Source: a virus. Taken from it: 45,398 bases of DNA. Both the position numbers and the translations under genes were made by a program. Under the pieces are notes generated by a model. It saw nothing but the letters and a program-made list of their open reading frames with translations. It was not told the origin of the DNA and ran no database searches. Where the stretch lies: positions 1-45,398 of the IMG/VR virus record IMGVR_UViG_3300032323_002752, one strand, 5' to 3'. Shown piece by piece: positions 6,383 to 33,903 of the stretch. The stretch's first letter is position 1. Every line of letters starts with the position of its first letter.

Positions 6383-8596
6383 ATGCCTATTCCATTAATA
6401 TCCAGAACGAACACCATTGATGAATGGCGTGTTCAAACTAACTTAGGAGCTACTGCTCTTAATAACTTAGAGGCCGGTAATTATACCAAAGCTAATGGTT
6501 CGTTATCATTAACTGCTAACAGTTCTTTGATTATTACAGCCAATGGTACTGCACTTCAAGTATCTAATAGTGCTTTGTTTCAGAGTAACGTTACGGTTGG
6601 TGGTGATATCGCTCTTGGTACACAAGGTTCTGCAACTGGTAATTTAACAACAGGTGGTGTAACTGTAATTCTAGGTCCAGGTAATGCTTTACAGGTGGCT
6701 AATAATGCAACTGTTAATACAGACCTTCAGGTGACAAGAACAATCTTCACAGGTAATGTTTCAGCCAATGGAAATGTTAACGTTGGTGGAAATTCAACAA
6801 TTGGCGGTGTTGTTAGAATGAATAATTCAGGAACAGCATTGTATGTTAACACAGGCACAGCTGTAATCAACACCGCAGTAATTACAAATTCAACCATAGG
6901 TAATATTGACGTTGTTCGTGGTGACATAGAAACATTAAATGTCACATCACAACTAAATGTTCAAAGTGCTTTAGTAACAATAAGAAGTTTATCTCCATCT
7001 TTTGATGCTTTGATTGTTAATCAAGGAAAAACAACAGTTCAAGATGTTGTCATTCAAGGTAACTTGTCTGTTTCGGGAACATACACACAGACCGGCAATT
7101 CAAATATTGAAATTGATACAATTACTTTAAACTCAAATACAAATATTGATAGGGATGCAAATATTGTTAACCGCCGCATTTCTGGAAATAATGCAGTGAT
7201 TCAATGGAACGAAGTTGATAAAAATTGGAAAGTATCTAGAGGTAATACATATACTTCTTTAAATAATATTATAGATTCCAGTTATGTTCTTTCCGTTGTT
7301 ACTAGTAATAGCACAATCAATGTGGCTTCAGCAGCCGCAGCTAAAGCTGCTTTTGATACCGCAGTAATTGCTGGGGGTTATGCAAATTCTGCTTACACCT
7401 CACAAAATACAACAGGTGTTTATGCTAATACTGCTTATACTCACGCCAATGCAGCTTATGTCAGTCAAAACACAACTGGTGTATATGCTAATACATCATA
7501 TCTACACGCTAATGCGGCTTATGTAAGTCAGAATACAACAGGTGTTTATGCTAACGCTGCATTTGCTCATGCAAATACACGATTTGCTTCTGCTGGTGGT
7601 ACAATCTCTGGTGCTGTTGTAATTAACGGCAATTTAACTGTTACTGGCACACAAACATATGTGAACTCAACAATCACAATGTTTGCTGACCCAATATTAA
7701 CATTAAATGCTGACTGGCCTATGGCATCAGCACCTATTGAAAATGCAGGTATTGAAGTTCAACGAGGCACATCTGCAAATACAGTATTGCGATGGAACGA
7801 AACAACAGATAGATGGGAATTCACAAACGATGGCACGAACTACGGTGATATTGCCTCTACCGCACAAGTAACTGCAGCTGGTTCATTCGCCAACTCTGCA
7901 TACACTCAAGCAAATACAGCAACAACTAATGCGGCCACTGCTGACCAACGAGCAATAACTTCTGGTTCATTCGCCAACTCAGCATATACACAGGCTAACA
8001 CCGCAACAACTAATGCGGCCACTGCTGACCAAAGAGCAGTAACTTCTGGTTCATTTGCTAATAGTGCTTATCTACAAGCTAATACTGCAACTACAAACGC
8101 TGCTTCAGCCAACACTAATGCAAACAGTCGTGTATTGAAAGCTGGAGATACAATGACTGGTGCTTTGATTGTTCAGTCCACGATAGATGCAACAGGCACA
8201 ATTACTGCACCTTTGTTTAGTGGTACTGCAACTGCTGCTCGTTATGCTGACTTGGCAGAAAAATATACGACTGATGTAGAATATTCTGTCGGTACTGTTG
8301 TTGTTGTTAATACTGAACCAGATTCAGAGGCAACAAAATCAACATCAATTTCTCAATTGGTTTTAGGAGTTATCTCCGAGAAACCTGCTTATCTAATGAA
8401 TTCGGAATCCACTGGTCAAGCTATTGCTTTGCGTGGCCGAGTTCCTGTTCGTGTGGTTGGACCTGTTAGAAAAGGTCAAACATTGGTTTCTGGTCCTAAT
8501 GGAACAGCCAGTGTTGGTGAAGTTAATCGTTTTGCGATTGCTTTAGAATCTAAAGATACACACGAAGAAGGGAATATTGAAGTAGTTATTTTATGA
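6383..8596 (+). CDS. Tail fibre / adhesin with ANSAY repeats
   Basis: A 737-residue fibre-like protein. Residues 1-60 (MPIPLISRTNTIDEWRVQTN) look like a virion-attachment end. A beta-rich shaft full of N-G-N-V-x-V-G-G-type turns follows. Two copies of a small domain with a W-N-E...W signature appear near residues 275-295 and 465-485. Degenerate 28-residue ANSAY...ADQRAVTSG repeats run over about residues 500-585. The C-terminal 125 residues open with ARYADLAEKY and resemble a terminal domain common in phage fibres. It could form a trimeric fibre. No S74 auto-processing serine is seen, unlike three later fibres here. The stop overlaps the next gene by 4 nt. Receptor binding is inferred. Confidence 0.85.
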   Translation: MPIPLISRTNTIDEWRVQTNLGATALNNLEAGNYTKANGSLSLTANSSLIITANGTALQVSNSALFQSNVTVGGDIALGTQGSATGNLTTGGVTVILGPGNALQVANNATVNTDLQVTRTIFTGNVSANGNVNVGGNSTIGGVVRMNNSGTALYVNTGTAVINTAVITNSTIGNIDVVRGDIETLNVTSQLNVQSALVTIRSLSPSFDALIVNQGKTTVQDVVIQGNLSVSGTYTQTGNSNIEIDTITLNSNTNIDRDANIVNRRISGNNAVIQWNEVDKNWKVSRGNTYTSLNNIIDSSYVLSVVTSNSTINVASAAAAKAAFDTAVIAGGYANSAYTSQNTTGVYANTAYTHANAAYVSQNTTGVYANTSYLHANAAYVSQNTTGVYANAAFAHANTRFASAGGTISGAVVINGNLTVTGTQTYVNSTITMFADPILTLNADWPMASAPIENAGIEVQRGTSANTVLRWNETTDRWEFTNDGTNYGDIASTAQVTAAGSFANSAYTQANTATTNAATADQRAITSGSFANSAYTQANTATTNAATADQRAVTSGSFANSAYLQANTATTNAASANTNANSRVLKAGDTMTGALIVQSTIDATGTITAPLFSGTATAARYADLAEKYTTDVEYSVGTVVVVNTEPDSEATKSTSISQLVLGVISEKPAYLMNSESTGQAIALRGRVPVRVVGPVRKGQTLVSGPNGTASVGEVNRFAIALESKDTHEEGNIEVVIL
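7878..8130 (+). repeat. ANSAY-type 84-nt repeats in first fibre
   Basis: Three degenerate copies of an 84-nt unit encode 28 residues of the form ANSAYxQANTATTNAATADQ followed by RAVTSGSF. The first two copies agree closely at DNA level. The same unit recurs in four other fibre genes of the window, so it is a shared shaft module, probably alpha-helical or coiled-coil judging by its alanine and polar spacing. Confidence 0.85.
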
Positions 8597-9120
8597 TAAG
8601 CATTGGTGAGTTTGATGAATTTATACATAATGATTTTGTTTATGCACAAAAATTAATCTCGATTATCAACGAAGAAGGCAAACAAATATTCGTTGATAAT
8701 CTAGGAGAACTATATAAGTTTAATGCGTGTACCATTAAATTGGAACACATGGAGAGATACAGTAGAGAAATCTACGACTATTGTAAATTTCTTTCCAGTA
8801 AATATAATAATGATTTGCCGGTGACTTGTCATGTATTCAGAGCCTTTAGGCAATCTTTAAGTTTTGGCTTGCATACCGACCCGGACGATGTTATACTACG
8901 TTGTGTTTGGGGTAAAAAAAGAATGAGTGTTGACGGTAAAATTGTTGACCTTCATCCAGGCCAAAAAGTTTTTATTCCCGCAAACACACCACATGAAGCT
9001 CTCAATGATGAAGAATCATTGATGTTGAGTTTTGGTTTAGAAGATTTTTATAAGAATAAATTATATAATGAATTGGATGTTTTACCTAAAAACCACGGAA
9101 ACGTGCAATCTGAATTGTAA
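8593..9120 (+). CDS. Cupin/JmjC-like Fe(II) oxygenase candidate
   Basis: A 175-residue protein. His94-x-Asp96 (in SFGLHTDPDDV) and His134 (in FIPANTPHEAL) are spaced and placed as in the metal triad of cupin and JmjC-type Fe(II)/2-oxoglutarate oxygenases. PGQKVFIPANTPH is the typical second cupin strand pair. The protein begins by a 4-nt overlap with the preceding fibre gene, and its end is overlapped by the radical SAM gene that follows, so the two are probably translationally coupled. The substrate is unknown. Its place at the head of the radical SAM cassette suggests protein modification (inference). A metal-binding cupin without oxygenase activity is the main alternative. Confidence 0.68.
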   Translation: MISIGEFDEFIHNDFVYAQKLISIINEEGKQIFVDNLGELYKFNACTIKLEHMERYSREIYDYCKFLSSKYNNDLPVTCHVFRAFRQSLSFGLHTDPDDVILRCVWGKKRMSVDGKIVDLHPGQKVFIPANTPHEALNDEESLMLSFGLEDFYKNKLYNELDVLPKNHGNVQSEL

Positions 9121-10132
9121 ACATTGCTTTACAAATGGCACCAATGGAGCTAAGGTATTTTGGAATCATTATAAGATAATTGATTGGATTAAAAGGTTTG
9201 CTGAATATAGAAAAGATAATTTAAAGCAAGATACTTTACATTGTGAATTTCATGGCGGTGAACCTTTTTTAGTTCCTACTTTTCAAATGCGTCATGTGTG
9301 GGAAGATTGTAAAGACTTATTTCCCAACATGACTTGGGGTGCAACAACAAATTTAGTATATAAACTTGATGAAGAACAGATTGACTTAATTAAGGATTGT
9401 TTTGATAATCGTATAGGTACAAGTTGGGATCCTAAGATACGATTTGCAAACCAAAAACAGAATGATTTATGGTTAAAGAATGTTAAAACTATTGTTGACC
9501 GAGGAATAAATGTTAAGTTGTTCATTAGTGTTACAAAAGATACAGTAGATATAGAACCAATTGAATTGTTAAAATGGGTCAAAAGTTTAGGCATAAAAGA
9601 GTTATCTTTTGAACGGCTTACTGGTAACGGAAATGCTAATCTACATCCAGAAATTTTTCCGACCAATATTGAACAGGATGCATGGTTTTTGAAAATGCAC
9701 CATCAGTCCGAAGAACATGGTTGTAGAGAATGGTTTGATAATGAGTTTTTAGAAACCATTTATGGTAAGTTTGAAACTGGATTTCTAAAAGGTGGAACAT
9801 TCTGCCGAGATTGTGAAGAAAAGTTGTTTACGGTCAATGCTGATGGTACTATTTCTGGATGTCCAAATTCGGCACCAGAATTTCAGTTTGGAAACATTGA
9901 TGATGATATAGAAACACTTATAAATAGTCCTATAAGAATAGAAAATATTGCGTGTGAACGGTCTAGGGACCCAAGATGTTATTCATGTGATGTTTTTGAG
10001 TATTGCGGTGGAGATTGCCACCAACTAGGCTGGCAAGACGATGTTTGTGGTGCCCCTAAAAGTTTAATGAGATTTTTAAAAAGTAAAGAAAATAAAAAAA
10101 TTTGGATGATGAAAAATGGCAACATTAAATAA
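9068..10132 (+). CDS. Radical SAM/SPASM protein A
   Basis: A 354-residue protein of the size of peptide-modifying radical SAM/SPASM enzymes. The CX3CX2C cluster motif is Cys13, Cys17 and Cys20, and the SAM-binding GGEP is at residues 63-66. From about residue 245 to 330 there is a SPASM-like region with many cysteines (CRDC, GCPN, C296, C304, C307, C313, C317, C327), expected to hold auxiliary Fe-S clusters. The reading frame overlaps the upstream cupin gene by 53 nt. A second ATG three codons in (9077) is an equally plausible start. It lies directly upstream of the Cys-His-x-Ser protein (17-nt overlap), which is the strongest contextual hint for its substrate. Enzyme class is secure; reaction and substrate are not. 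Confidence 0.9.
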   Translation: MNWMFYLKTTETCNLNCKHCFTNGTNGAKVFWNHYKIIDWIKRFAEYRKDNLKQDTLHCEFHGGEPFLVPTFQMRHVWEDCKDLFPNMTWGATTNLVYKLDEEQIDLIKDCFDNRIGTSWDPKIRFANQKQNDLWLKNVKTIVDRGINVKLFISVTKDTVDIEPIELLKWVKSLGIKELSFERLTGNGNANLHPEIFPTNIEQDAWFLKMHHQSEEHGCREWFDNEFLETIYGKFETGFLKGGTFCRDCEEKLFTVNADGTISGCPNSAPEFQFGNIDDDIETLINSPIRIENIACERSRDPRCYSCDVFEYCGGDCHQLGWQDDVCGAPKSLMRFLKSKENKKIWMMKNGNIK

Positions 10133-10688
10133 CCCCATAAACCCACAAAATATCGTTGATAGATTTGCAGACTATGTAGTGGCCACAGGCAATGCAGGAA
10201 TTGTTTGGGGAACAGATGCGATTCCATTCGGTGAAATGGATGTGTCTTACTTTGGTGGAACAACATCAGGTAAATCAATAGGAATTTCTGGCTCAAATAT
10301 TAATGCGGTTGGTGATATAATCACAGCCTCAAACATCTATAATACACTTGTCACTGAAACAGCAACATTTACAAACATTAGAAACCTAAGAGCATTACTA
10401 TTCGTTGATGGTGGTGGTGGAAATACAGGTTCTAGGCCAGATCCAGGATATGTATACGATAACACACAAGTTGCATACTTGAATTCTTCATATTTACAAA
10501 GCATTGGTTCACCTAATCCTTCGGATGTATCTTCTGGAAATTCAGCAACCAGTTCAGGTTTAGAAACATTCTTTGCAAATTTGCAATCAGCTTATAATAC
10601 AGCAAGAGCAACGACAGAAACTATACAGATTAATGTGTGTCACGCATCTTGTCATTCATCATGTCACGGCTCTAGAGGAAGAAGATAA
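10116..10688 (+). CDS. Virion-like protein with C-terminal (CHxS)3 tail
   Basis: A 190-residue protein I do not place in a named family. Residues 1-170 are soluble, Gly/Ser/Asn/Thr-rich and beta-prone, like fibre or tip proteins, with a GGGGNTG segment near residue 108. They contain no cysteine. The last 16 residues hold Cys175-His176, Cys179-His180 and Cys183-His184, each followed by x-Ser, then a basic Arg-Gly-Arg-Arg end. All three cysteines of the protein lie in this tail. Such a leader-like body with a short repeated tail, next to radical SAM/SPASM genes, looks like a modification substrate. The tail resembles the His-Xaa-Ser repeats of HxsA proteins but with Cys interleaved. Alternatives are a metal-binding tail or disulfide anchor. 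Confidence 0.75.
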   Translation: MATLNNPINPQNIVDRFADYVVATGNAGIVWGTDAIPFGEMDVSYFGGTTSGKSIGISGSNINAVGDIITASNIYNTLVTETATFTNIRNLRALLFVDGGGGNTGSRPDPGYVYDNTQVAYLNSSYLQSIGSPNPSDVSSGNSATSSGLETFFANLQSAYNTARATTETIQINVCHASCHSSCHGSRGRR

Positions 10689-11410
10689 TGAATATAATTG
10701 AAACTGTTGCACCAATTTCTATTGAAGAATTGAAAAAATATTTTACAGATAAGAATAATTTTTATCTAATTGATTATTCAAAATCAAAGTTAAAAGGTAA
10801 AAAACTTTTAACATATTTAAGTAATTTGGAAATTCCTTCAGACATAAACTTTATAGGTACAACAGAAGAAGAATTCTCTGAGATATTTAAAGAATATTTG
10901 AATTTGGAAATGATTTGTAATGTGCCATCACTTGAAAAAATTACGATTGATATTCTAAAAGAATTTAAAGGACTATCAAACCAAAGTATATTTGACGGTC
11001 TAATACAAGACAACACAGATATCCTTAAAGAATGGGTATCTAAACTAGACAGTTTAACTTTATACAATATGTATTCAATTGGTGATGAAGAATTTAAAAA
11101 ATTTGTTGAATCACATACATTAGATGAAACCAATTGTCTTAAAGGTGTTAATTTTGTTAGCCTATTGAAACATAAAGAATTTTACAGTCTATATGAAAAA
11201 ATAGAACAACGAGATTTGAAATTTTATAAAAAATATTTTGAAGATTATATGTTCAAAGGAAAGAATCTATATTCCTATTGGGCAAACGAAAACAACCCCA
11301 TGTTCCTATTAACATTCGGTATTGCTGGCGGTCTTGTTACGGGCGATGATTATGTTTCAATTAAAAAACAAACAATTCAGGAGTTAAAGGATGTTTCACC
11401 TATTCAGTAA
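10688..11410 (+). CDS. Unknown protein in radical SAM cassette (240 aa)
   Basis: A 240-residue protein I do not recognise. It is Lys/Glu/Leu-rich and looks soluble and mostly helical, with no signal peptide or clear membrane segment. A hydrophobic glycine-containing stretch (FLLTFGIAGGLVTGDD) lies near residues 208-223. Its start codon overlaps the stop of the Cys-His-x-Ser protein by one base (TAATG), indicating translational coupling. Its end overlaps the next gene by 20 nt. Position between the putative substrate and further enzymes makes a partner role, such as substrate recognition or delivery, conceivable, but no sequence feature demonstrates it. Confidence 0.7.
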   Translation: MNIIETVAPISIEELKKYFTDKNNFYLIDYSKSKLKGKKLLTYLSNLEIPSDINFIGTTEEEFSEIFKEYLNLEMICNVPSLEKITIDILKEFKGLSNQSIFDGLIQDNTDILKEWVSKLDSLTLYNMYSIGDEEFKKFVESHTLDETNCLKGVNFVSLLKHKEFYSLYEKIEQRDLKFYKKYFEDYMFKGKNLYSYWANENNPMFLLTFGIAGGLVTGDDYVSIKKQTIQELKDVSPIQ

Positions 11411-12425
11411 GGTATATGTAACTAGTGATTCTACAATAGATTTAGATTTTGATAGAGTAGTCATATCTAACAAATATGGAGTCGGTATGTATGAGGCTTT
11501 GGATAAAGTTTCTTATGGAGAATTATGTGCATATGGAAAAACCATAGATTCTGCTCTGAATGGAAAAACATTCAGTGCGTTTATCAATTCTTTATTACAA
11601 AAAGTAAACAATACAGGGAAAAAAGTTATAATTTATGTTGATGATAATAATTTTTCAAAATTTATGTCACTATGGTTCAAATCAATATTTTTGAATCCTA
11701 CAGCAGAATCATCTTGGAAAATAATTGATGATTATATTAGAAAAGAAAAGATACTGAAGAATTGGAGATATTCTTCAACCTCAACCGAATCTGATATCTT
11801 TAAAGAAGTGACTGAAGTTAAATTCATTGAACATTTTAATGAAGCACAGCCACAAAATTTATCTTCAATAACTTCTGAATTAAGTTTTGAAATTTTGTTA
11901 GCTTCATATTTGGCAGACGGTACACAAAAAGATTCTTTGAAACAAACATTGAACACATTATTGAATAGAAGTATGCAAGAGTTGGTAATAGAAATTAAAC
12001 ATACATATGTAAAAAATTACAGAAAACCTGCATTTCCATCTTTGCCTGTTGAACTCACATTCTTTTCAGACTCATCATTGTATAAGAGTGAATCTATTGG
12101 TAGAGTAAGTGGTTCGTCTCCTGTTGATTTGATTGGTGCAACATCAGAAGATATTGAATTATTTAAACAAACAGCCGTCAAAGTTCTTACTGAATGGGAC
12201 CAGTTTAACTCAAATTCCAATATTGTCAATCGTGTGGGACTAATTAACTTCGTTAGAACAGAAATCACAGATGAACAACTGAATTATTTAATCAATTTTG
12301 AAAAGACATCTTTAAGTAACACTAGATTATATTCTTCCGCTGATGAAGAAAAAATTAATATTTACTTTTTGGATTTTGTTTTGAACTCAACACAAGAGAA
12401 TTTGACAGATTATATTTTAAAATGA
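11391..12425 (+). CDS. Unknown protein in radical SAM cassette (344 aa)
   Basis: A 344-residue protein without a family I can name. The N-terminal 100 residues (MFHLFSKVYVTSD, later KKVIIYVDDNNFSKFM) alternate beta strands and helices and could form a small Rossmann-like or PIN-like lobe. The rest is helical and Ser/Leu/Lys-rich. There are almost no cysteines and no catalytic motif. It overlaps its upstream neighbour by 20 nt and the downstream oxygenase by 4 nt (ATGA), so it belongs to the same translationally coupled block. It may be a structural or adaptor protein for the modification enzymes (inference only). Confidence 0.7.
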   Translation: MFHLFSKVYVTSDSTIDLDFDRVVISNKYGVGMYEALDKVSYGELCAYGKTIDSALNGKTFSAFINSLLQKVNNTGKKVIIYVDDNNFSKFMSLWFKSIFLNPTAESSWKIIDDYIRKEKILKNWRYSSTSTESDIFKEVTEVKFIEHFNEAQPQNLSSITSELSFEILLASYLADGTQKDSLKQTLNTLLNRSMQELVIEIKHTYVKNYRKPAFPSLPVELTFFSDSSLYKSESIGRVSGSSPVDLIGATSEDIELFKQTAVKVLTEWDQFNSNSNIVNRVGLINFVRTEITDEQLNYLINFEKTSLSNTRLYSSADEEKINIYFLDFVLNSTQENLTDYILK

Positions 12426-13051
12426 ACCATGATTTATATTATGAAAATGGTTTTTTTAAAACAGAAATTGATGATGTAACAAAAAAACTGTTGTGGAATG
12501 AAATTTATAATACCGAATGGATTGCAGATGGTGTTGAAAACATTTATAAAGAAATACCCGTTTGGTATCAAAGCAAAAATAAATATAATTTAAATCCAGA
12601 TGGATCAAATCGTTCTCAATATGAGAGAGATATTGGTTCCGACATTCTAAAAAATACTCCAAAATCTTTAATTGAAATAGGACTTGATTTAACCCAATCA
12701 AGTCCTTTTAATTTTTTTAAAAAGTATTATAAAAAAGCTGAACTTCAATATATAGATTTATGGAATGGTTCAGAAGAAATACCATATCACTTTGACACAA
12801 TAAATGGTGCAGATACCTTGGTGTTGATATACTTGACAGAGCAAGAATCTTGGGATAAAAATTGGGGTGGCACAATTACAATGAAGAAACAGGTGGGAGA
12901 AAAAATTCATTTTGAAGAAGAAGTTTTGCCAAATGATGGTGTTATGCTTATTGTAAATAATGCAAACCCACTAGTCTACCATAAAGTTTCATCTTTAAAA
13001 AATACATCCATAAATAGATATACATTTTCATTCATTTATAGGTGGTTTTGA
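12422..13051 (+). CDS. 2OG-Fe(II) oxygenase, short paralogue
   Basis: A 209-residue protein with the full double-stranded beta-helix signature of a 2-oxoglutarate/Fe(II) oxygenase. His123-x-Asp125 (PYHFD) and His187 would bind iron, and Arg199, twelve residues after the distal histidine, would bind 2-oxoglutarate. The strands VLIYLTE and WGGTITM between them are typical of prolyl-hydroxylase-like members. It is clearly paralogous to the C-terminal half of the protein at 14053-15153, sharing the WNGSE, WGG and NRYTF blocks. It lies between unknown genes and a radical SAM gene. It probably hydroxylates an amino-acid side chain or a sugar; the substrate is unproven. Confidence 0.85.
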   Translation: MNHDLYYENGFFKTEIDDVTKKLLWNEIYNTEWIADGVENIYKEIPVWYQSKNKYNLNPDGSNRSQYERDIGSDILKNTPKSLIEIGLDLTQSSPFNFFKKYYKKAELQYIDLWNGSEEIPYHFDTINGADTLVLIYLTEQESWDKNWGGTITMKKQVGEKIHFEEEVLPNDGVMLIVNNANPLVYHKVSSLKNTSINRYTFSFIYRWF

Positions 13052-13055
13052 TTTG
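13039..13055 (+). promoter_or_regulatory. RBS and TTG start of radical SAM B
   Basis: An AGGTGG purine-rich sequence at 13039-13044 lies eight bases before TTG at 13053. No ATG is available before the CX3CX2C motif in this frame, so the TTG start is favoured. The RBS is inside the last codons of the upstream oxygenase. Confidence 0.5.
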
Positions 13056-14078
13056 ATAGCTGAACATTTATTAAACATTCATGATAAGAGACCAGATGTT
13101 GGTGAAATTATTGTTACATTATTTGAATATTGTGATTTGAATTGTCTTTTTTGCAATCAAGACCATGATAGTTATGAAGGTATAAATTCAATAGTCAATA
13201 AGTTTGAAGAAATCAAACTGTCAATAGACCAACTAATTTCAAAAGGCAAAAAGTCATTTTCCATACACATGATGGGTGGTGAACTTTTTTCCGATAAAAT
13301 AGAAGATAGTGTTTTTGATGATTACCGAATATTAACAGAAAAAACATTACAATATGGTAAAGAAAAAAACATACCAATAGAAGTATCCTTTGTTACGAAT
13401 TTTGTCTGGACAAAAAAAGACAGGGTGAAAAATTTTTTAGATGCGAACAATTTAAAAGTAATGACCAGTTACGACCCAGCTGGAAGATTTAATGCAAATA
13501 CTTTTGAAATATATAAAGCAAATGTGGTGGAATTTAAAGATTACATACAAACCGTCAATGTCATTATGACCAAACCTAACATTGATAAGTTTATGAAAAA
13601 TCAAGTTCCTTTTTTTGATTTCATCTATGATAATTTTGCCATATATTTTGACTACTATGGTCCTGGTAAAAATCACGAATTTTTATTAGCTAAAGATATT
13701 GAACTTAGAGATTTTATGAAGTATATGTTTGATACTTGGCCTAAATGTTATCCATTTAAAACATTTGATGTTAAAACAAAAAATAAAATGTCTTGCATGG
13801 ATACACTAACTGTAATGCCAAACGGTGAATGGGGTGGATGTGGCCATTTTGAAAAATTAGTAAAAATTATACCTATCAAAAACATAACTGAAGAGCAATG
13901 GTTTGAAAGTTATAATTGTTTTGAATGTGAACATTTTCAAAGATGTTCAATGGGTTGTTTTATGAGTAATCACGTAAAAGATATGAGAACTCAAAAAACT
14001 TGTTGGTTAAAAGAAGTATATGATTATGTTGATTTAGAAGATAGGAAAACAAATGATTGTAGCATTAATAGAACATAA
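13053..14078 (+). CDS. Radical SAM/SPASM protein B
   Basis: A 341-residue radical SAM protein. The cluster motif CX3CX2C is Cys27, Cys31 and Cys34, and the SAM-binding glycines are GGEL at residues 75-78. The C-terminal third carries a SPASM-type cysteine set: CMDTL, then GGCGHF, then C-x2-C-x5-C-x3-C and a final Cys before the last helix. It uses a TTG start placed one base after the upstream stop. It is distant in sequence from the radical SAM protein at 9068, so it is not a recent duplication. Probable role: formation of a thioether, C-C or similar cross-link or other radical modification on a peptide; the target is not known. Confidence 0.88.
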   Translation: MIAEHLLNIHDKRPDVGEIIVTLFEYCDLNCLFCNQDHDSYEGINSIVNKFEEIKLSIDQLISKGKKSFSIHMMGGELFSDKIEDSVFDDYRILTEKTLQYGKEKNIPIEVSFVTNFVWTKKDRVKNFLDANNLKVMTSYDPAGRFNANTFEIYKANVVEFKDYIQTVNVIMTKPNIDKFMKNQVPFFDFIYDNFAIYFDYYGPGKNHEFLLAKDIELRDFMKYMFDTWPKCYPFKTFDVKTKNKMSCMDTLTVMPNGEWGGCGHFEKLVKIIPIKNITEEQWFESYNCFECEHFQRCSMGCFMSNHVKDMRTQKTCWLKEVYDYVDLEDRKTNDCSINRT

Positions 14079-15153
14079 TAAAGATTTTATAGCAGAAGAA
14101 AGTATATGCTATATCAGAAAAAAATATCCTAGTTTCAAATTTGATTATGAACTCTTGCGTAGAGATATTCATATGATTATTGATATCTTTATGGGAGAAC
14201 TTCATGTTGAAGGTGGAGTATACTCATATGATATTGAAGATGGTCGTGATGATTCATATTATCAATTAAACAGATATAAGAGGTCGTTTACAGTTTTTAG
14301 AAACCATAGTGAAGAAACTATTGATTGTATTCAATATACATCAGGTTTGATTAAAAAAGTTGTAAAAAATGAAACGGTTGAAAATGTCTTAAACACATTC
14401 TTCAAACAAATAAAAGATGAAAGTCAAACTTTACCTGATGATAAAATGGTTGACTTTGATGCAATCGTGGGTTTGATAATCTCAAATTCTTCAGCTGGTG
14501 CGGCAAGAAACTATCACATAGATTTTATTGAAGAATACTTTGATAAAGGCTTTGTTGTTACTAAAATTCCTCCACACATACATGAACAACTTTGGGAACA
14601 AGTTCGCAATACAAATTGGATTGACGCCAAAAATTCCACATATAAAAAAGTTCCAGATTGGTATCATGAGAACGAAAAACATTATGTTGACCCAACAGGA
14701 TTTGACCGACCTGATTATGAGAGAAAAGTTGCAGCTGATATTTTTACAAATGCGCCACAAAGTTTGATTGATATTTCAGATGAATTGATTAAGGATGATA
14801 CATTCAAACCTTTAAGAATGTATAGACCTCCAAATCCTGTCACCAAATATTTACATTTCTGGAATGGTAGTGAAAATTCACCACATCACGTTGATGCTAT
14901 TGACGGTTCAGATTTAATGGTATTTCTTTACCTAACTGAAGAAACCGATTGGAAAGAAGAATGGGGTGGGTATATTAATATTATGAAAGAAGTTAACTCT
15001 GAAATTACTAACACAAGAACAATTCTTCCAAATAATGGCGTAATGGTTTTAGTTAATAATTCAGCACCAATCTTTAAACACGGCATTCGTAATTTAATTA
15101 AACGTGATGTGAATAGATATACATTTATTTTTCACTATACGTGGACATATTGA
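14053..15153 (+). CDS. 2OG-Fe(II) oxygenase with N-terminal extension
   Basis: A 366-residue, two-part protein. Residues 1-155 form a domain I do not recognise, with several aromatic and acidic residues and a central MGELHVEGGVYSYD segment. Residues 157-366 are a 2OG-Fe(II) oxygenase paralogous to the 209-residue protein at 12422. His279-x-Asp281 and His343 would bind iron, and Arg355 lies twelve residues after the distal His. A good ribosome site (AGGA at 14043-14046) precedes the ATG, which overlaps the upstream radical SAM gene by 26 nt. The extra domain may give substrate binding or different specificity (inference). Oxygenase class is firm; the reaction is unknown. Confidence 0.84.
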   Translation: MIVALIEHNKDFIAEESICYIRKKYPSFKFDYELLRRDIHMIIDIFMGELHVEGGVYSYDIEDGRDDSYYQLNRYKRSFTVFRNHSEETIDCIQYTSGLIKKVVKNETVENVLNTFFKQIKDESQTLPDDKMVDFDAIVGLIISNSSAGAARNYHIDFIEEYFDKGFVVTKIPPHIHEQLWEQVRNTNWIDAKNSTYKKVPDWYHENEKHYVDPTGFDRPDYERKVAADIFTNAPQSLIDISDELIKDDTFKPLRMYRPPNPVTKYLHFWNGSENSPHHVDAIDGSDLMVFLYLTEETDWKEEWGGYINIMKEVNSEITNTRTILPNNGVMVLVNNSAPIFKHGIRNLIKRDVNRYTFIFHYTWTY

Positions 15154-15159
15154 TGTTTT

Positions 15160-16227
15160 ATGGAATTAATTATAAAACCGACCGAAAGGTGCAACTTTAA
15201 ATGCACCTTTTGTTCAAGCACCAATATCACCGAAGATAAGTCTGTTGAATTAGACCACGAATACATTTTTCGTTTTCTCAAAAGATATCCTGAAACAAAT
15301 ACCATCATAGTTAATGGTGGTGACCCATTGATGATGAATCCAGAATACTATTGGAAAATTATAGATTATTTGGATGAGAATGAGTTGTCAACAGGAATCA
15401 GTTTTACTTCCAATCTTTGGCCATTTTATAAAAACCCCGATAAATGGATTGACTTGTTCAGACACAAAAGAATGGGAATTGCAACATCGTTTCAGTATGG
15501 TGGTGGAAGATTAAAAGGTGATTTGTCTGAATTCACCGAAGAAGATTTTTGGAATGTTTCTGATAAAATGTTAGAATTGGTGGGTTACAGACCAGATTTT
15601 ATCTCAGTGATAACAGAAGAAAATGTTAATAGAGCGATTGATAATGTTTTATTAGCTAAAAAAATGAGTGTGGAATGTAAGTTGAATTATGCTTTCAGTT
15701 CCGGTCCACCAGTTCAGTTTCGTGGCATTACAATGGGTCAACAAGGCAAACCATATATGTTGGCTGACATCTATGAGATATATGTTAAGATATGGGAGAT
15801 GGGATTAACTGATTGGGAATACAACACCAAACAGATGGTCAAGCGACTGAGAGGCAATTCAACCACTTGTCCTCAGAATAGAGATTGTGATTCCAGTATC
15901 AGAACATTACAACCATCAGGTGACTACTATTCTTGTGGTGCTTTCGGTGACGATAAAGAATATTCCATAGACTTTGAAACTGAAATGTCTGGTAAGAAAA
16001 TATTTCCAATTAAACACGAAGTTGATTTACAATCATTAAAACAATCATGTTATTCTTGTCCAATGTTTCAAATTTGTAACGGTTGTAAAAAAACAATTAA
16101 AGATTTGAAAAGTCATGGCTTAGTTGAGAAGCATTGTAAAAAAATGAAAACTCTAGCTCCTAGTATAATTCAGGCAAACCAAATGGAGTTGGAAGTTACC
16201 CCATATGTTAATGAGGAATTAGTGTGA
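15160..16227 (+). CDS. Radical SAM/SPASM protein C
   Basis: A 355-residue radical SAM protein beginning MELIIKPTERCNFKCTFC. The cluster cysteines are Cys11, Cys15 and Cys18, and a GGDP at residues 53-56 replaces the commoner GGEP. The C-terminal part has a long cysteine set (CPQNRDC, YSCGAF, SCYSCPMFQICNGC, then a final CKK) consistent with SPASM auxiliary clusters. The beginning (K-P-T-x-x-C-N-F-x-C-x-F-C) is typical of peptide and protein maturases. Its stop overlaps the next radical SAM gene by 3 nt. No ribosome site is obvious ahead of the ATG; coupling to the upstream oxygenase, six bases away, is likely. Substrate unknown. Confidence 0.9.
   Translation: MELIIKPTERCNFKCTFCSSTNITEDKSVELDHEYIFRFLKRYPETNTIIVNGGDPLMMNPEYYWKIIDYLDENELSTGISFTSNLWPFYKNPDKWIDLFRHKRMGIATSFQYGGGRLKGDLSEFTEEDFWNVSDKMLELVGYRPDFISVITEENVNRAIDNVLLAKKMSVECKLNYAFSSGPPVQFRGITMGQQGKPYMLADIYEIYVKIWEMGLTDWEYNTKQMVKRLRGNSTTCPQNRDCDSSIRTLQPSGDYYSCGAFGDDKEYSIDFETEMSGKKIFPIKHEVDLQSLKQSCYSCPMFQICNGCKKTIKDLKSHGLVEKHCKKMKTLAPSIIQANQMELEVTPYVNEELV
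16213..16226 (+). promoter_or_regulatory. RBS and GTG start of radical SAM D
   Basis: GAGGAA at 16213-16218 precedes a GTG start (16224-16226) by five bases. The GTG overlaps the TGA stop of the upstream gene as GTGA. No ATG exists before the conserved cluster motif, so the GTG start is the best reading. Confidence 0.6.
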
Positions 16228-17147
16228 TTTTATCGGTAAACCCATGGTACTACTGTAACTTTAGGTGTGACTTTTGTTATCTAACTGAAAGTCAATTGGA
16301 AGACACCAAGCTGTTACCGATTGAAATTTTAGAAGAAAGATTGATAGAGATTTCAAGTCACGCCAAAATTGACATGGTAGACTTGTATGGTGGAGAAGTG
16401 GGAATATTGCCTAATGAATATGTTTCGGCAATTAAAGATTTGTTACACACTTACGGTATAGATGATATTAACCTGATAACTAATTTGTCTATGGTCAATG
16501 ATATAGTGACCGATGAAGATTTCTATATCTCGGTCAGTTATGATTTTGAAGCTAGAGAGAAACACGAACAGGTTTGGAGAAATATGTTGTTACTTAAACG
16601 ACCATTCTCCGTTCTTATGTTGGCCAGTCCAAAGTTGATTCAAAAAGATGTCAATGAGATGATACAGGCCTTCAATCTAATACCTAATGTTTGTAGTGTA
16701 GAGATTAAACCATACTCAACTAATCAGGCCAATCAGTTAAATATTAATTACCGTGAATATGAAGAATTCGTTAAGAAGTGGATTACAAGTCCAATAAAGA
16801 AAAATTTTTCATTTACAAACGAACAACTTATAGAACAGAGTATATCTGGAGAAAGAAATAGTTTTTCGGATGACCATATCTATATAACACCATCAGGTAA
16901 ATATGGTGTATTGGAGTTTGACTTAAACGATAACGAATTCTTCTTAGAATATGAAACTTTTGATGATTATTTGAACTGGTGTGAAAGAGAAAAGAAAAGA
17001 GTTGCAAAAAATAAATTTTGTTCTGAATGTAAGTATTTTGGCAATTGTCTATCCGAACACCTAAGAGAAGTTAAGAACTTAGACAATAGTTGTAATGGAT
17101 TTAGACTATTATTAGATTGGTATAAAGATGAAAGAGTGGAAAATTAG
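16224..17147 (+). CDS. Radical SAM protein D with short C-terminal Cys cluster
   Basis: A 307-residue radical SAM protein, the shortest of the four. The cluster motif is Cys11, Cys15 and Cys18 within VNPWYYCNFRCDFCY, and a YGGE sequence covers residues 55-58. Instead of a full SPASM domain the C-terminus has C-x2-C-x5-C followed later by one more Cys, enough for one auxiliary Fe-S cluster (twitch-like). It follows radical SAM C with a GTGA overlap and itself overlaps the next small gene by 20 nt, so the pair C/D may act together, as paired radical SAM enzymes do in some RiPP systems such as Hxs. Pairing and substrate are inferred. Confidence 0.86.
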   Translation: MILSVNPWYYCNFRCDFCYLTESQLEDTKLLPIEILEERLIEISSHAKIDMVDLYGGEVGILPNEYVSAIKDLLHTYGIDDINLITNLSMVNDIVTDEDFYISVSYDFEAREKHEQVWRNMLLLKRPFSVLMLASPKLIQKDVNEMIQAFNLIPNVCSVEIKPYSTNQANQLNINYREYEEFVKKWITSPIKKNFSFTNEQLIEQSISGERNSFSDDHIYITPSGKYGVLEFDLNDNEFFLEYETFDDYLNWCEREKKRVAKNKFCSECKYFGNCLSEHLREVKNLDNSCNGFRLLLDWYKDERVEN

Positions 17148-17532
17148 GCAAGAAATCTATCATAGATTGAACACAGAATATTCGGATGATTTAAGTTTAC
17201 ACCACATTGAAATGACAGAAAATGTGGTTGAAAATGCTATTAGATATTTCAATGAAAGAGATATAGGCTGGATATACCCATCTAAAAGTTATATGGTTGG
17301 CATATGCTATGCTAAATGGTTATCTGAACAATTTGGTAAAGAACCAATTGATTATCTAAACGAAGAAGATTTGTTATATAGAAATGACCCATACTTTGTA
17401 ACCTATGATAAAGACAAAGTTACTTATGATGAAATATTAAGTAAAATTGGTGGTTGGAATTTCAAATTTGAGGGTATGGTTCCTGATGTTAAGGAATATT
17501 TTAATGAGGAGTTTATGATTGAAAACTTTTAA
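17128..17532 (+). CDS. Small unknown protein between maturase and oxygenase
   Basis: A 134-residue acidic, Tyr/Glu/Asp-rich protein, apparently helical and soluble. I do not recognise its family. Notable blocks are YPSKSYMVGICYAKWLSEQF near residues 49-69 and a C-terminus FNEEFMIENF. It overlaps the upstream radical SAM gene by 20 nt and the downstream oxygenase start by 14 nt, so it is embedded in the modification cassette. Its size would suit a substrate-recognition or accessory protein, but nothing in the sequence proves this. Confidence 0.65.
   Translation: MKEWKIRQEIYHRLNTEYSDDLSLHHIEMTENVVENAIRYFNERDIGWIYPSKSYMVGICYAKWLSEQFGKEPIDYLNEEDLLYRNDPYFVTYDKDKVTYDEILSKIGGWNFKFEGMVPDVKEYFNEEFMIENF
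17506..17521 (+). promoter_or_regulatory. RBS and TTG start of oxygenase at 17519
   Basis: GAGGAG at 17506-17511 is an almost ideal Shine-Dalgarno sequence seven bases before TTG (17519). The nearby ATG at 17515 is in another frame and belongs to the end of the preceding gene, so TTG is the real start. Confidence 0.65.
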
Positions 17533-18088
17533 TCTATGGCCTACCACAATGATGGTACATGAGGTTGAAGATGAAGAATTGATGTCGGAATCTTTGGCTT
17601 TTTTAATTACCAACCGAAAAGAACTCGTCAATAAAGAGAATAAGAAAAGTTGTATACTAGAAAACGAACCTCTGAAACAGTTAAAGGAAAAAGTATTCTT
17701 ACCGGCGTTTGATAAATACCTACAAGAAACCTGTAATAGAAAACTTGATGATTGGAGTTACAACCTCAATGGATGGTTGGCATCATACGGTGAAGGTCAA
17801 AGTTTGAATTATCATAATCATAGAGGTTCACAACTAAGTTCGGTGTTATACATGATGGCCGATTCTGAAGATGATGGTGGCGACATTATGTTCACTGACC
17901 CTAGACAGAACGCAAATCGTGGATATGATTTACATTTTAGTAGTTGGTTTGAATCGTTTAGACTGAAACCTAAGTGTGGCCAGTTAGTTGTTTTTCCTAG
18001 TTTTCTATATCATTACGTGGAAACTTACAGAAGTAATATAAGAATGGCTTTGCCTGTAGATTGTTTCCTACAAAACAAACATAAATAA
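17519..18088 (+). CDS. 2OG-Fe(II) oxygenase, TIGR02466-like
   Basis: A 189-residue protein with the block order of the small phage/bacterial 2OG-Fe(II) oxygenases of the TIGR02466 type. YHNHRGSQLSSVLYM (His99, His101) is followed by a GG-D-I-M-F-T-D-P-R segment, then GQLVVFPSFLYHYVETY with His165, then an arginine (Arg175) for 2-oxoglutarate. The N-terminus (MKTFNLWPTTMMVHEVED) also fits this family. It belongs to a different subfamily from the paired oxygenases at 12422 and 14053. This family is widespread in marine T4-like phages, where its substrate is unknown. It closes the modification cassette directly before a fibre gene. Confidence 0.87.
   Translation: MKTFNLWPTTMMVHEVEDEELMSESLAFLITNRKELVNKENKKSCILENEPLKQLKEKVFLPAFDKYLQETCNRKLDDWSYNLNGWLASYGEGQSLNYHNHRGSQLSSVLYMMADSEDDGGDIMFTDPRQNANRGYDLHFSSWFESFRLKPKCGQLVVFPSFLYHYVETYRSNIRMALPVDCFLQNKHK
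18080..18087 (+). promoter_or_regulatory. Candidate T4-type late promoter before fibre 18093
   Basis: CATAAATA matches the T4-like late promoter consensus (TATAAATA) at seven of eight bases. It lies only five bases before the ATG and coincides with the stop region of the upstream oxygenase, so transcription from it would give an almost leaderless message. Chance occurrence in AT-rich DNA is possible. Confidence 0.3.
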
Positions 18089-18092: not shown

Positions 18093-19181
18093 ATGTCCTC
18101 ATTATTAGATAGATTAAATTCAGGAACAACAGCTGATGTCATATTGGTTTATGATACGGTTGATGCTGCGTTTATAAAAGCCAACTCTGCTTTTAGTAGT
18201 CAAAATACTACAGGTGTTTATGCCAATTCGGCCTATATTCATGCCAACGCTTCATATAGTTTAGCGAATACTGTTGCTGCCAACAATACACCTACAATCG
18301 CTTTCTTAACGGCCAACGCTGCCTTTATTCAAGCAAACGTAGCAACTGCATTGGCTCAAGAAGCTTTTAATTCTGCCAATAATGTCGCACCACAAATTCA
18401 ACCAGCATTTGACCAAGCTAATATTGCATTACAATATGCCAATTCTGCTGGTCAATATGCAAATGCAGCTTATAATCAAGCCAATACTGCAACAACCAAT
18501 GCCGCTACTGCCGACCAAAGAGCAGTAACTTCTGGTTCATATGCCAATAGTGCTTTTTCTGCAGCCAATACGGCTTTAGCTGGTGTTGCTGGTTCTTATG
18601 CCAACAGTGCTTTTGGTCAAGCAAACACCGGAGTTGTTTTTGCAACTTCGGCTGGAGTTTATGCAAATGCAGCTTATAATCAAGCCAATACTGCAACAAC
18701 CAATGCCGCTACTGCCGACCAAAGAGCAGTAACTAGTGGTGTTTACGCTAACGCTGCCTTTGCATCGGCAAATACTAAATTTAATTCATCCGGTGGAACG
18801 ATTTCTGGTGCAGTTACAATATCAAGCGGTGGACTAGCTGTGACCGGTGCAATTACCGCAACTGGTGATATCACAGCATTTTTCTCAGATGACCGATTAA
18901 AGACTAAATTAGGTAACATAGAAAATGCTCTGGATAAATTGATGACTTTGAGTGGTTTTTATTATGAACCCAATCAGACTGCCATAGACCTTGGATATGA
19001 ACTGAAACGTGAGATTGGAGTTTCTGCACAAGAGGTACAAAAAGTTGTTCCGGAAATTGTCGTTAAAGCACCAATAAGTGACGAATATTTAACGGTTAAG
19101 TATGATAAATTGATTCCTCTAATCATAGAATCTATCAAAGAACTGAAGTGTGAAATTGATAGTTTAAAAATGCCTAAATAG
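18093..19181 (+). CDS. Tail fibre with S74 chaperone domain
   Basis: A 362-residue fibre protein. Residues 1-250 consist largely of ANSAY/ADQRAVTSG-type repeats, two copies of which (about 18466-18530 and 18661-18735) are almost identical at DNA level. The last 98 residues form a Peptidase_S74 (endosialidase-type) intramolecular chaperone, starting SDDRLK. Ser265 and Lys270 match the autocleavage Ser-x4-Lys pair known in this family, so the domain is expected to fold the trimer and then be cut off. A short terminal helix (IIESIKELKCEIDSLK) is typical. It follows the oxygenase gene by 4 nt. Confidence 0.88.
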   Translation: MSSLLDRLNSGTTADVILVYDTVDAAFIKANSAFSSQNTTGVYANSAYIHANASYSLANTVAANNTPTIAFLTANAAFIQANVATALAQEAFNSANNVAPQIQPAFDQANIALQYANSAGQYANAAYNQANTATTNAATADQRAVTSGSYANSAFSAANTALAGVAGSYANSAFGQANTGVVFATSAGVYANAAYNQANTATTNAATADQRAVTSGVYANAAFASANTKFNSSGGTISGAVTISSGGLAVTGAITATGDITAFFSDDRLKTKLGNIENALDKLMTLSGFYYEPNQTAIDLGYELKREIGVSAQEVQKVVPEIVVKAPISDEYLTVKYDKLIPLIIESIKELKCEIDSLKMPK

Positions 19182-30451: not shown

Positions 30452-31351
30452 ATGAAACCTTCTGGTGGAACTGAGTTATTATATAACAATTTAATTAAGT
30501 ATGTTGGACAAGATTGGTTGAAAGATATCAATCTTGTTATTTCTTCTTGTTATTCCGATTTAATAAGTCCAAAAAAACCGAATATTTTATGGCAACATCT
30601 GTCATATGACCAATGGAATATGAGGTTTATGAATGATATCAAATTCATAAACATGGTTGACCATTTCGTATATGTTTCGAATTGGCAATTGAATGAATAT
30701 CAAAAAAGATTTCCTATTTCTCACTGCAACAATCGTGTAATTCGTAACGCAATTATACCGATTGAATTCAAAGAAAAACCCAAAAATAAAATAAAAATAA
30801 TATACACTTCTATGCCCAATCGTGGCCTTGAAGTTTTATTGGATGCGTTTGAAATAATGAATCGTGATGATGTGGAACTTACTGTTTATTCTTCCACCAT
30901 TATTTACGGTAAAAATTACCGTGATGATTCAGCTCAGGTATTATTCAATCGTGCCAAATGCATGAAAAATGTCAACTATAAAGGTTATGCCATGAATGCT
31001 GGTATACGAAAGGCCTTGCAAGAACACCACATTCTGGCTTATCCTAGTATATTTGAAGAAACATCATGTTTATCAGCCATAGAAGCTGGTGCTGCAGGTT
31101 GTAAAATTGTTACAACAAATTATGGTGCATTACCTGAAACCTGTTCCAATTGGGCTACATATGTAAATTACACAGTGGATAGAAAAGAACTTGCCGGCAA
31201 TTATTCTAAAATTCTTAATGAATCTATTGACAATTACTGGAAAGAATGTTATAATTATAAAGAGCAAAGTAAATGGTTTAACAATACTTACTCTTGGGAA
31301 AATCGTGCAAAAGAATGGAAACAATTTTTAGGTGAAATATGCGTAAAGTAA
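30452..31351 (+). CDS. Glycosyltransferase, GT4-like (GT-B)
   Basis: A 299-residue protein. The C-terminal lobe has the GT-B/GT4 pattern: KIKIIYTSMPNRGLEVLLDAF, then a hydrophobic strand LTVYSS, then HHILAYPSIFEETSCLSAIEAGAAGCKIVTTNYGALPE with the E-x7-E nucleotide-sugar motif region. The N-terminus begins MKPSGGTELLYNNL. Six codons between the upstream stop and this ATG, in the same frame, would read KLWCI before it, like the missing first beta strand of a GT-B fold, so translation may start at a non-AUG codon. It lacks a normal ribosome site because the hairpin fills the gap. Donor and acceptor sugars are unknown. Probably cytoplasmic. Confidence 0.82.
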   Translation: MKPSGGTELLYNNLIKYVGQDWLKDINLVISSCYSDLISPKKPNILWQHLSYDQWNMRFMNDIKFINMVDHFVYVSNWQLNEYQKRFPISHCNNRVIRNAIIPIEFKEKPKNKIKIIYTSMPNRGLEVLLDAFEIMNRDDVELTVYSSTIIYGKNYRDDSAQVLFNRAKCMKNVNYKGYAMNAGIRKALQEHHILAYPSIFEETSCLSAIEAGAAGCKIVTTNYGALPETCSNWATYVNYTVDRKELAGNYSKILNESIDNYWKECYNYKEQSKWFNNTYSWENRAKEWKQFLGEICVK

Positions 31352-32058
31352 TGATTGCAACGCCATGTATGTATGGTGCACTTGATGTCTGGTATGTTAA
31401 TTCTTTAGTTAACACCATTAAAATGGCTAAAGATAGAGAAGTGGAAATAATTCCAATTTGGATTAGCTTTGATGCTTTATTGCAGAGAGCTAGAAACGAC
31501 CAAATTTTTACAGCATTACAAATGAATTGTGATGATATTGTTTGGATTGATTCTGATATAGAGTGGACTCCAGAATGGTTCTATCAACTTCTTGATTACC
31601 CCGTTGATGTTGTTGGTGGAACATACCGTAAAAAAGGAGACCTAGAGGAGTATGTTTATCGCCAAATAAAAAAAACTTCGCCAAATAAATTTGGCCTAGT
31701 TAAAGTTGATGGGTTAGGCACAGGTTTTGTCCGTATGAGTAAAAATGCTATGCAACATTTGTGGGAGGTTAGTAAACCATATATTGACCCGAAAGACAAT
31801 CGAGAAAGAAGAATGATTTTTGATGTTGTCGTTGAAGATATTGATGGCGTTCCAAACATGATTAGTGAAGATATTCACGCATTTAAGAAATTGATTAACG
31901 GTGGATTTGATATTTGGTTGGATCCAAAAATGACTTGCAATCATACAGGACATTATAAATTTCAAGGTGATTTTAATTCTTGGTACATGAATAATTATTC
32001 GGAAAAAAAATTAACTTTACCAGCAATATTACCAAAAATTCCACGTAGACAATTATGA
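31339..32058 (+). CDS. Glycosyltransferase-like (GT-A) protein
   Basis: A 239-residue protein with a GT-A look. ATPCMYGALDVWYVNSL opens the fold, R-A-R-N-D follows near residue 50, and DDIVWIDSDIEWTPEWF carries the D-S-D metal/nucleotide motif. VVGGTYRKKGDLEEYVY and DGLGTGFVRMSKNAM follow, then SEDIHAFKKLINGGFDIWLD with an acidic SED acceptor-side motif and CNHTGHYKF with a late histidine. Such proteins occur in marine phage glycan clusters. It overlaps both neighbours (13 nt upstream, 4 nt downstream). The transferred sugar is not known. Confidence 0.78.
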   Translation: MRKVMIATPCMYGALDVWYVNSLVNTIKMAKDREVEIIPIWISFDALLQRARNDQIFTALQMNCDDIVWIDSDIEWTPEWFYQLLDYPVDVVGGTYRKKGDLEEYVYRQIKKTSPNKFGLVKVDGLGTGFVRMSKNAMQHLWEVSKPYIDPKDNRERRMIFDVVVEDIDGVPNMISEDIHAFKKLINGGFDIWLDPKMTCNHTGHYKFQGDFNSWYMNNYSEKKLTLPAILPKIPRRQL

Positions 32059-32852
32059 AAAATTTTATTATGTTATCGGGATTACCAAGGTCCGGATCCC
32101 AAGTGTTGACATCATTACTTAATCAACATCCAGAAATATACGCATCAACAACAAGTCCAGTGGTTGATTTGTTATCGATTGTGAATAGTAATTGGAAATA
32201 TATATCGCAAGGTTCATTAGACCAACACCCCGAAAAAGAAAATAATATTATCGGAGGTATGATTGATGGAGCTTACAAACATATAGAGAAACCTGTAATT
32301 GTAGACAAGAATAGGTTATGGCCAAGATATAGTAAAGTTATGTTAAATGTTTTAGGAAAAAAACCTAAAATTATTTGCACAGTTAGGCCGATACCTGAAA
32401 TACTATCTTCCTATATCTTATTGGTCAGGAAAAATAGTCATAAAATTACTTTTATTGACCAAGAATTGATTGATATGAAATTGCCTATCAATGATAAAAA
32501 TCGCTGCCGAATATTGTGGGAAAAATTTATCAATCATCCATACATGAGTTTGAGAATTGGATTCAATTCTAGTGATGTTGAATTGTGTGTCGTTTCTTAT
32601 GATGAAATTGTTAAACATAGCCAACAAACTATGAATAAAATATGCGAGTTTATTCAAATAGATACACATACCGTCAATATAAATTCACTACAAAGAATGG
32701 ATGAAAACGATTCATATTATGGTGGTTTAGAAGGTTTACATGAAGTTAGAAGTGAGATGAAACGTGTTAGTCCTCCTCCAGAAGAAGTGATAGGACAAGA
32801 ATTAACGCAACTATATACTAATATGAAATTAGATTTTTGGAATAGAACATGA
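32055..32852 (+). CDS. Sulfotransferase 1
   Basis: A 265-residue protein with the PAPS-binding phosphosulfate loop GLPRSGSQVLTSLLNQHPEI at residues 9-28 and a plausible 3'-phosphate-binding segment around IICTVRPIPEILSSYIL. The length and end (a helix QELTQLYTNMKLDFWN) fit phage and bacterial carbohydrate or tyrosyl sulfotransferases. It would transfer sulfate from PAPS to a hydroxyl of a sugar or protein. It is homologous to the protein at 36529 but not very similar, so different acceptors are likely. It shares ATGA overlaps with both neighbours, placing it firmly in the glycan operon. Confidence 0.85.
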   Translation: MKNFIMLSGLPRSGSQVLTSLLNQHPEIYASTTSPVVDLLSIVNSNWKYISQGSLDQHPEKENNIIGGMIDGAYKHIEKPVIVDKNRLWPRYSKVMLNVLGKKPKIICTVRPIPEILSSYILLVRKNSHKITFIDQELIDMKLPINDKNRCRILWEKFINHPYMSLRIGFNSSDVELCVVSYDEIVKHSQQTMNKICEFIQIDTHTVNINSLQRMDENDSYYGGLEGLHEVRSEMKRVSPPPEEVIGQELTQLYTNMKLDFWNRT

Positions 32853-33872: not shown

Positions 33873-33903
33873 AATATTGAATTATATATATGAGAGGTTA
33901 TGA

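Follow-up and report, generated by a model that had tools for sequence, protein, structure and literature searches.

A C-terminal Cys-His-x-Ser tail linked to radical SAM enzymes in phages and predatory bacteria: probably a new adhesion-protein modification system

The stretch of DNA analyzed here, hereafter the window, is an IMG/VR virus record of 45.4 kb (IMGVR_UViG_3300032323_002752, positions 1 to 45,398; 45,398 nt). It covers the host-recognition region of a T4-like phage, with a DUF4815 structural protein at its left end and the gp15 tail sheath stabiliser at 43377. Within it lie twelve plus-strand genes (A-L, 8593-18088), which follow one another with overlaps or gaps of a few bases and are bounded by two plus-strand fibre genes at 6383-8596 and 18093-19181. 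These genes code for four radical S-adenosylmethionine (SAM) enzymes (B, G, I and J), four oxygenase-like proteins (A, F, H and L), three conserved unknowns (D, E and K) and one protein, C (10116-10688), with a Cys-His-x-Ser (CHxS) tail, which we propose to be the substrate of the enzymes. A first-pass annotation made from the sequence had described this coupled run between two fibres, with the CX3CX2C and GGE/GGD motifs of its four radical SAM enzymes and its three unknowns, and all of these are indeed present where it had placed them.

Protein C is predicted to comprise a folded body and a flexible C-terminal tail, the confidence measure (pLDDT) of its AlphaFold2 (AF2) model being mostly above 90 in the body and about 50 in the tail. 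The tail, which is the proposed modified peptide, consists of the last 16 residues (175-190; 10638-10685, plus strand; CHASCHSSCHGSRGRR) and ends in RGRR. The protein had initially been called fibre-like; it matches no fibre family, its sole family match being to phrog_35144, a family with no function, over the last 27 residues. The tail falls within no family of Pfam or NCBIfam, and when the phage collection was searched with protein C by tblastn, nothing matched; anchoring on the radical SAM enzyme of gene B (rSAM1) worked instead. A degenerate DNA pattern for the tail end recovered 102 stretches from IMG/VR, 91 of them true C-terminal tails; the eleven viral-contig matches lacking an open reading frame (ORF) with a strict C-terminal tail were set aside. 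Upon dereplication, the tails resolve into 45 variants of C-H-x-S-C-H-x-[SNA]-C-H-x-[SNA]-R-x-R-R. Every tail has three units and sits at the extreme C-terminus, and matches to the motif elsewhere in proteins look like chance frames. Positions 4, 8 and 12 are limited to Ser, Asn or Ala, with Ser at position 4 in 145 of 148 tails.

An alignment of 65 diverse tail proteins leaves just nine columns without any variation, namely C,H,C,H,C,H,R,R,R. Since the rows of this alignment were selected by the motif, the linkage tests anchored on radical SAM enzymes carry more weight than these columns. Mean identity is 85% in the tail as against 20% in the 16 residues preceding it and, as the invariant residues are encoded by differing codons, selection acts on the tail peptide. 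With the tail removed, the bodies sort into one large family and a second one of five from jumbo phages, plus five singletons with no similarity that could be detected, and on this comparison the tail is a modular unit carried by differing bodies. In one clade (L136:8318-9686, also L134, L137, L144 and others) the tail-protein gene is divided into two, the first half coding for a Gly_rich_2 domain of the kind that occurs in phage adhesins. A tandem pair of tail proteins of ~125 residues occurs at several loci (L025, L026, L033, L040, L062, L063, L066, L067, L094, L096, L102, L230, L249 and L276); the enzymes lie some kilobases off in several of these, and three are in a Rhodobacteraceae metagenome-assembled genome.

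The linkage of this tail to the radical SAM enzymes was examined from three directions. First, in 80 loci retrieved by similarity to rSAM1 only, the exact tail (CH..CH..CH..R.RR) was found within 5 kb in 76, immediately after rSAM1 in 68, so that gene B nearly always directly precedes the tail-protein gene. In the remaining four the retrieved stretch stops before the expected place of the tail, which makes 76/76 of the assessable loci. Second, in 34 loci retrieved by the radical SAM enzyme of gene J (rSAM4) only, the tail was found in 27, i.e. 27/27 of those assessable, the retrieved stretch of the other seven excluding the rSAM1-to-D interval where the tail is expected; the two locus sets have some contigs in common. 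As neither scan has an assessable locus that lacks the tail, the association is beyond chance. Third, in the reverse test, 81 of the 91 tail ORFs from the DNA pattern have a radical SAM relative in the retrieved stretch. Of the ten others, eight show one to fifteen radical SAM matches elsewhere on the contig and two are 33-36 kb fragments. The first-pass annotation had suggested checking whether CHxS proteins and radical SAM genes co-occur, and had named a tail protein common without such neighbors as evidence against its proposal; the co-occurrence holds in both scans, and neither they nor the reverse test revealed the latter pattern.

In 68 assessable cassettes, B and D are present in 67, G in 65, E in 60, I in 59, J in 53 and K in 46, with some of the losses due to cut contigs. 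The oxygenase set varies between cassettes and other genes come and go; the variable extras include a 175-residue family resembling 2-oxoglutarate (2OG) oxygenases and a 583-residue radical SAM family, a relative of which in a predatory bacterium also has a B12-binding match below the cut-off. The enzyme-substrate cassette is real, widespread and strictly conserved.

All four radical SAM enzymes display the CX3CX2C motif together with a GGE/GGD motif, and these residues are at least 93% conserved within the families. They comprise rSAM1 (B, 9068-10132), a radical SAM/SPASM enzyme with C13, C17, C20 and eight auxiliary cysteines conserved; radical SAM enzyme 2 (G, 13053-14078), with CX3CX2C and seven SPASM-like auxiliary cysteines conserved; rSAM3 (I, 15160-16227), the most conserved enzyme, with ~60% identity to versions in Burkholderia and Agrobacterium jumbo phages; and rSAM4 (J, 16224-17147), a Twitch-like enzyme with four auxiliary cysteines, which provided the second search anchor. 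With PF04055 (cut-off 29.5 bits), B (36.1), I (34.6) and J (30.1) score over the cut-off and G (23.1) under it, though its motif and its match to phrog_1802 (E=6e-40) are clear. With the SPASM model TIGR04085 (cut-off 27 bits), B scores 34.6, and I (22.9) and G (15.1) score lower, both with seven or more auxiliary cysteines conserved.

Turning to the oxygenases, A (8593-9120) is a cupin/JmjC_2-like putative Fe(II) oxygenase (Cupin_2 30.8 bits, JmjC_2 24.1 bits, both over the cut-off) with H94-x-D96...H134 conserved. F (12422-13051), an accessory 2OG-Fe(II) oxygenase-like protein with H123-x-D125...H187 conserved, reaches 25.5 bits with PF13640, just below the cut-off of 27. H (14053-15153), an accessory 2OG-Fe(II) oxygenase with an extra N-terminal domain, exceeds the cut-off of the same family (28.4 bits), as does L (17519-18088), also a 2OG-Fe(II) oxygenase, that of PF13759 (50.3 bits). 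Four such proteins are present, as had been proposed; their supposed common HxD/H signature does not extend to L, whose conserved iron-ligand motif is HNH...H (H99-N-H101...H165) rather than HxD...H. As every family retains its cluster cysteines or iron ligands, the cassette enzymes look active, i.e. they are predicted to be catalytically competent.

The remaining genes are less tractable. D (10688-11410; phrog_20767), which also occurs in predator cassettes, gives a confident model with no convincing fold match in the PDB; a partial likeness to anSME (Z 2.7, 115 residues) was too weak to use. E (11391-12425) is fast-evolving, opens with MxHLFxKVY and is duplicated in some cassettes. Its weak match to the UDP-glucose:protein N-glucosyltransferase (NGTferase) lies below the cut-off (E=9e-4) and found no Pfam support on 50 members, and a role in glycosylation was discarded. 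K (17128-17532; phrog_20737) is small and likewise present in predator cassettes; its matches to PPR proteins in hmmsearch runs against PDB sequences were short-stretch artefacts, and profiles of D, E and C gave nothing useful in such runs. No peptidase or transporter family was detected among the scanned cassette genes.

The cassette had been regarded as phage-borne, which holds for the phages but not to their exclusion, as chromosomal versions exist in predatory bacteria. Scanning a species-genome collection with the tail pattern, we found true tails in Bdellovibrionota contigs of up to 382 kb, with a match in 9 of 369 Bdellovibrionota genomes; many of the matches in bacterial genomes were due to chance, in other reading frames. 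The predator cassettes unite, in differing combinations, the tail protein, radical SAM enzymes B, G, I and J, and members of the D and K families. A prophage origin was rejected for four regions, whose flanks look housekeeping-like on visual inspection of the protein starts. In the rSAM1 tree, seven predator sequences lie in a clade beside Agrobacterium phage Atu_ph07 and one with Pseudomonas phage DT01; since the predators are placed in two spots of this tree, the cassette appears to have been exchanged between phages and predators at least twice.

A Peptidase_S74 gene is located no more than 16 kb from the cassette, on the same contig, in 6 of the 9 Bdellovibrionota genomes, even though a genome has only 1-5 S74 copies. 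Several of these predator fibre-chaperone genes code for a prepilin N-methylation motif, i.e. they are prepilin-S74 chimeras, and it is possible that their products are pilus-mounted fibres. Among four such S74 proteins (L286:12654-13691, L289:4955-6142, L290:9628-10920 and L293:11505-12542), three score for the prepilin N-terminal motif and that of L286 is alike by eye. Small proteins with twin-arginine-like N-termini and a G-W motif at the end are coded beside three predator cassettes (L286:14430-14732, L289:4572-4970 and L290:9211-9594); one might speculate that they aid the export of a folded, modified partner.

Among cultured phages, rSAM1 is found in seven records of six phages in the 'phages' collection, namely Agrobacterium phage Atu_ph07, Sinorhizobium phage Phosso, Burkholderia phages FLC6, FLC8 and SURPRISE13 and Pseudomonas phage DT01. 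The motif ends all five tail proteins read from cultured phages, and FLC6, whose tail is outside these five, shares the gene order. Two IMG contigs, L017 (222,888 bases) and L076 (223,932 bases), also carry the cassette. A study of the Atu_ph07 virion by electrospray ionization tandem mass spectrometry (ESI-MS/MS) gives a structural cluster as 'CDS 170-215' (PMC6102473). The numbering of the record agrees with that of the study (gp181 baseplate, gp198 head/portal), and gp170, the first gene of this cluster, is the CHxS tail protein. This points to, but does not prove, a location of the tail protein in the Atu_ph07 virion, and we infer that it is likewise present in the virion of the window phage.

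The genomic setting accords with such a location. The upstream fibre (6383-8596) has a C-terminal domain conserved upstream of the cassette, homologues of which occur in 58 of 67 assessable phage loci, and the downstream fibre (18093-19181) bears a Peptidase_S74 intramolecular chaperone (PF13884, E=8.8e-10). Of the earlier proposal that the system modifies the adsorption apparatus, two parts have strong support, namely the linkage of enzymes to substrate and a position among the adsorption genes; the modification itself remains, like the virion location in the window phage, conjectural. Elsewhere in the window, a large fibre at 23990-26959 combines Mtd_N (major tropism determinant N-terminal) and Peptidase_S74 domains, and a single run at 30452-40125 in the host-recognition region codes for a glycosyltransferase, two sulfotransferases, a carbamoyltransferase and a C-methyltransferase, which may build or decorate a glycan.

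How does the cassette relate to characterized systems? It resembles the Hxs system (the repeat protein HxsA, the radical SAM enzymes HxsB and HxsC, and HxsD) in coupling radical SAM enzymes to a protein with His-x-Ser repeats. Unlike in Hxs, the units are Cys-His-x-Ser, always three in number, C-terminal and followed by an RxRR end; oxygenases, D, E and K are added, and the setting is phages and predators. Membership of the Hxs system is not borne out, with B scoring 25.8 bits against an HxsB cut-off of 370 and I 28.6 against 267.9 for HxsC. The triceptide systems (HaaB, ScaB, MscB, YhhB) likewise use radical SAM/SPASM enzymes, and an H-x-[S/N/A] unit would fit their i-to-i+2 cross-link: the 3-CyFE radical SAM enzymes join His C2 to the C-beta of residue i+2, and also Phe to Ser (PMC11002830). 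Triceptide substrates, however, are bacterial precursors of ribosomally synthesized and post-translationally modified peptides (RiPPs) rather than virion proteins, and for our cassette such a cross-link is hypothetical. Models for triceptide maturases (GrrM, XyeB, YhhB, FxsB, AmcB) yield at best 14-33 bits against cut-offs of 310-450. The maturases of the PapB ranthipeptide, darobactin (DarE) and dynobactin (DynA) are among the best distant matches of B, G and I, still far from the cut-offs (PapB, 340: B 44.5, G 25.1 bits; DynA, 450: I 52.7 bits). As no cassette enzyme reaches the cut-off of any named radical SAM equivalog, the cassette falls outside Hxs, PapB, darobactin, dynobactin and the known triceptide systems, though its mode of action may be similar.

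On the virion side, the T-even tip adhesin gp38 offers a parallel in that its gene follows a fibre gene in the host-recognition region, and one cassette clade has the inserted Gly_rich_2 domain. The window protein lacks sequence similarity to gp38, and Pfam finds no Gly-rich gp38-type receptor-binding motif in it, Gly_rich_2 being confined to the L136 clade. To our knowledge, the CHxS tail and its enzymes are absent from gp38 systems. Several radical SAM genes, mostly in tail-gene regions, have been reported, in the accessible portions of the literature, from pelagimyophages, Aeromonas phage 332-Vera, Campylobacter phages CP220/CPt10 and Burkholderia phages FLC6/SURPRISE13; host-recognition clusters of pelagimyophages are there said to differ by radical SAM cassettes (PMC7029224). 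The same portions label such clusters unusual, metabolic or host-recognition cassettes and propose no substrate or tail protein, the search having covered open rather than subscription literature. The CP220-type clusters of Campylobacter phages were set apart as they look different, the rSAM3 of the cassette matching no Campylobacter phage.

Taken together, we posit that the radical SAM enzymes and their partners modify the three C-H-x-S units of an adhesion-tip protein, a reading to which we assign a probability of roughly two in three. Under this proposal, the phage would make a structural protein of ~190 residues with a flexible C-terminus of three Cys-His-x-Ser units followed by Arg-Gly-Arg-Arg, upon which four different radical SAM enzymes, D, E, K and variable oxygenases would act in the infected cell, joined in some phages by a further large radical SAM enzyme. 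The units would probably be cross-linked or otherwise rebuilt. Because the second place after each His is limited to Ser/Asn/Ala, and given the radical SAM precedent (PMC11002830), the most economical guess is that three-residue His-x-Ser cyclophanes are formed, with changes at Cys as a second site and RGRR perhaps serving as a recognition handle; we offer this particular chemistry tentatively, and it could well be wrong. The finished protein would then be built into the adsorption apparatus by the fibre as a tip adhesin, in a genomic place like that of gp38, giving a chemically stabilised or sticky tip. In predatory Bdellovibrionota the same system, residing on the chromosome, would probably act on type-IV-pilin-anchored fibres, the product being the tip of a pilus fibre with which to grip prey.

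Several points weigh against this proposal. We infer from sequence, not from a measured mass or a structure, that the tail is modified, by which chemistry, and that it sits at the tip. A PDB search found no known fibre or adhesin fold resembling the body of protein C, and D, E and K belong to the cassette without an assigned role. The wording 'CDS 170-215' implies the detection of gp170 without stating it. The predator evidence comes from nine genomes, mostly metagenome-assembled. In related phages an S74 fibre was found beside the cassette in 0 of 41 loci (with a small home-made hidden Markov model), and we dropped it as a constant companion of the cassette in phages; for this reason, the pilus-fibre parallel is drawn from the predators and the window only.

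Furthermore, metals are classically bound by clusters of Cys and His. With three Cys-His pairs in each chain, or nine in a trimer, an unmodified tip could hold iron or zinc while the enzymes act on another product of the operon. In T4 the fibre tip holds iron by way of HxH motifs, and both the spacing of Cys and His and the position of the tail at the very C-terminus in every copy would suit this. It nevertheless leaves unexplained why four radical SAM families accompany the tail in every assessable locus, and into bacterial chromosomes, as well as the invariant RxRR and the Ser/Asn/Ala restriction, and we consider it unlikely. It is more improbable that the enzymes modify one of the neighboring fibres (6383-8596 or 18093-19181), with the CHxS protein as an adaptor or assembly factor: 2OG oxygenases do hydroxylate collagen-like proteins, and a fibre domain is conserved upstream in 58/67 loci, but the constant part across phage lineages and predators is the tail, not the fibre. 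Nor do we give much credence to a diffusible RiPP, in which the tail would be cleaved after maturation to release a peptide directed at competing phages or host cells, or a metallophore. Radical SAM/SPASM enzymes with Cys/Ser/His repeats are typical of RiPP clusters, and there are many distant matches to RiPP maturases; yet the modeled carrier is a large folded protein, its Atu_ph07 copy heads a cluster of virion proteins, and genes for leader removal and export, common though not universal in RiPP systems, are wanting in the window cassette, where no peptidase or transporter family was found. Least credible is a service to host Fe-S or cofactor metabolism, with a chance location in a hypervariable fibre region, as the accessible parts of PMC5332604 and PMC2853527 interpret rSAM-rich phages: in two scans the linkage to a single specific tail is strict wherever a locus could be assessed, and the enzymes form a distinct conserved set that is not a metabolic pathway.

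Returning to the proposed modification of an adhesion tip, the cassette is probably a new adhesion-protein modification system, none of its kind having been described in the literature covered. It may further represent, with odds slightly short of even, a previously unknown class of post-translational modification, namely a C-terminal peptide built by radical SAM enzymes on an adhesion-tip protein, common to T4-like phages, jumbo phages and predators, and used for gripping or breaching the Gram-negative surface. If so, the phage radical SAM clusters called highly unusual in several papers would gain a concrete substrate, and four new radical SAM families with a defined 16-residue substrate would become available, with FLC6, FLC8, SURPRISE13, Atu_ph07 and DT01 as cultured carriers. 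Many environmental phage virions would carry enzymatically rebuilt amino acids at the site of host contact, a modification that genome-based prediction of host range and unmodified recombinant fibres would both miss. It would also link the adsorption of phages to the attachment of Bdellovibrio-like predators to their prey.

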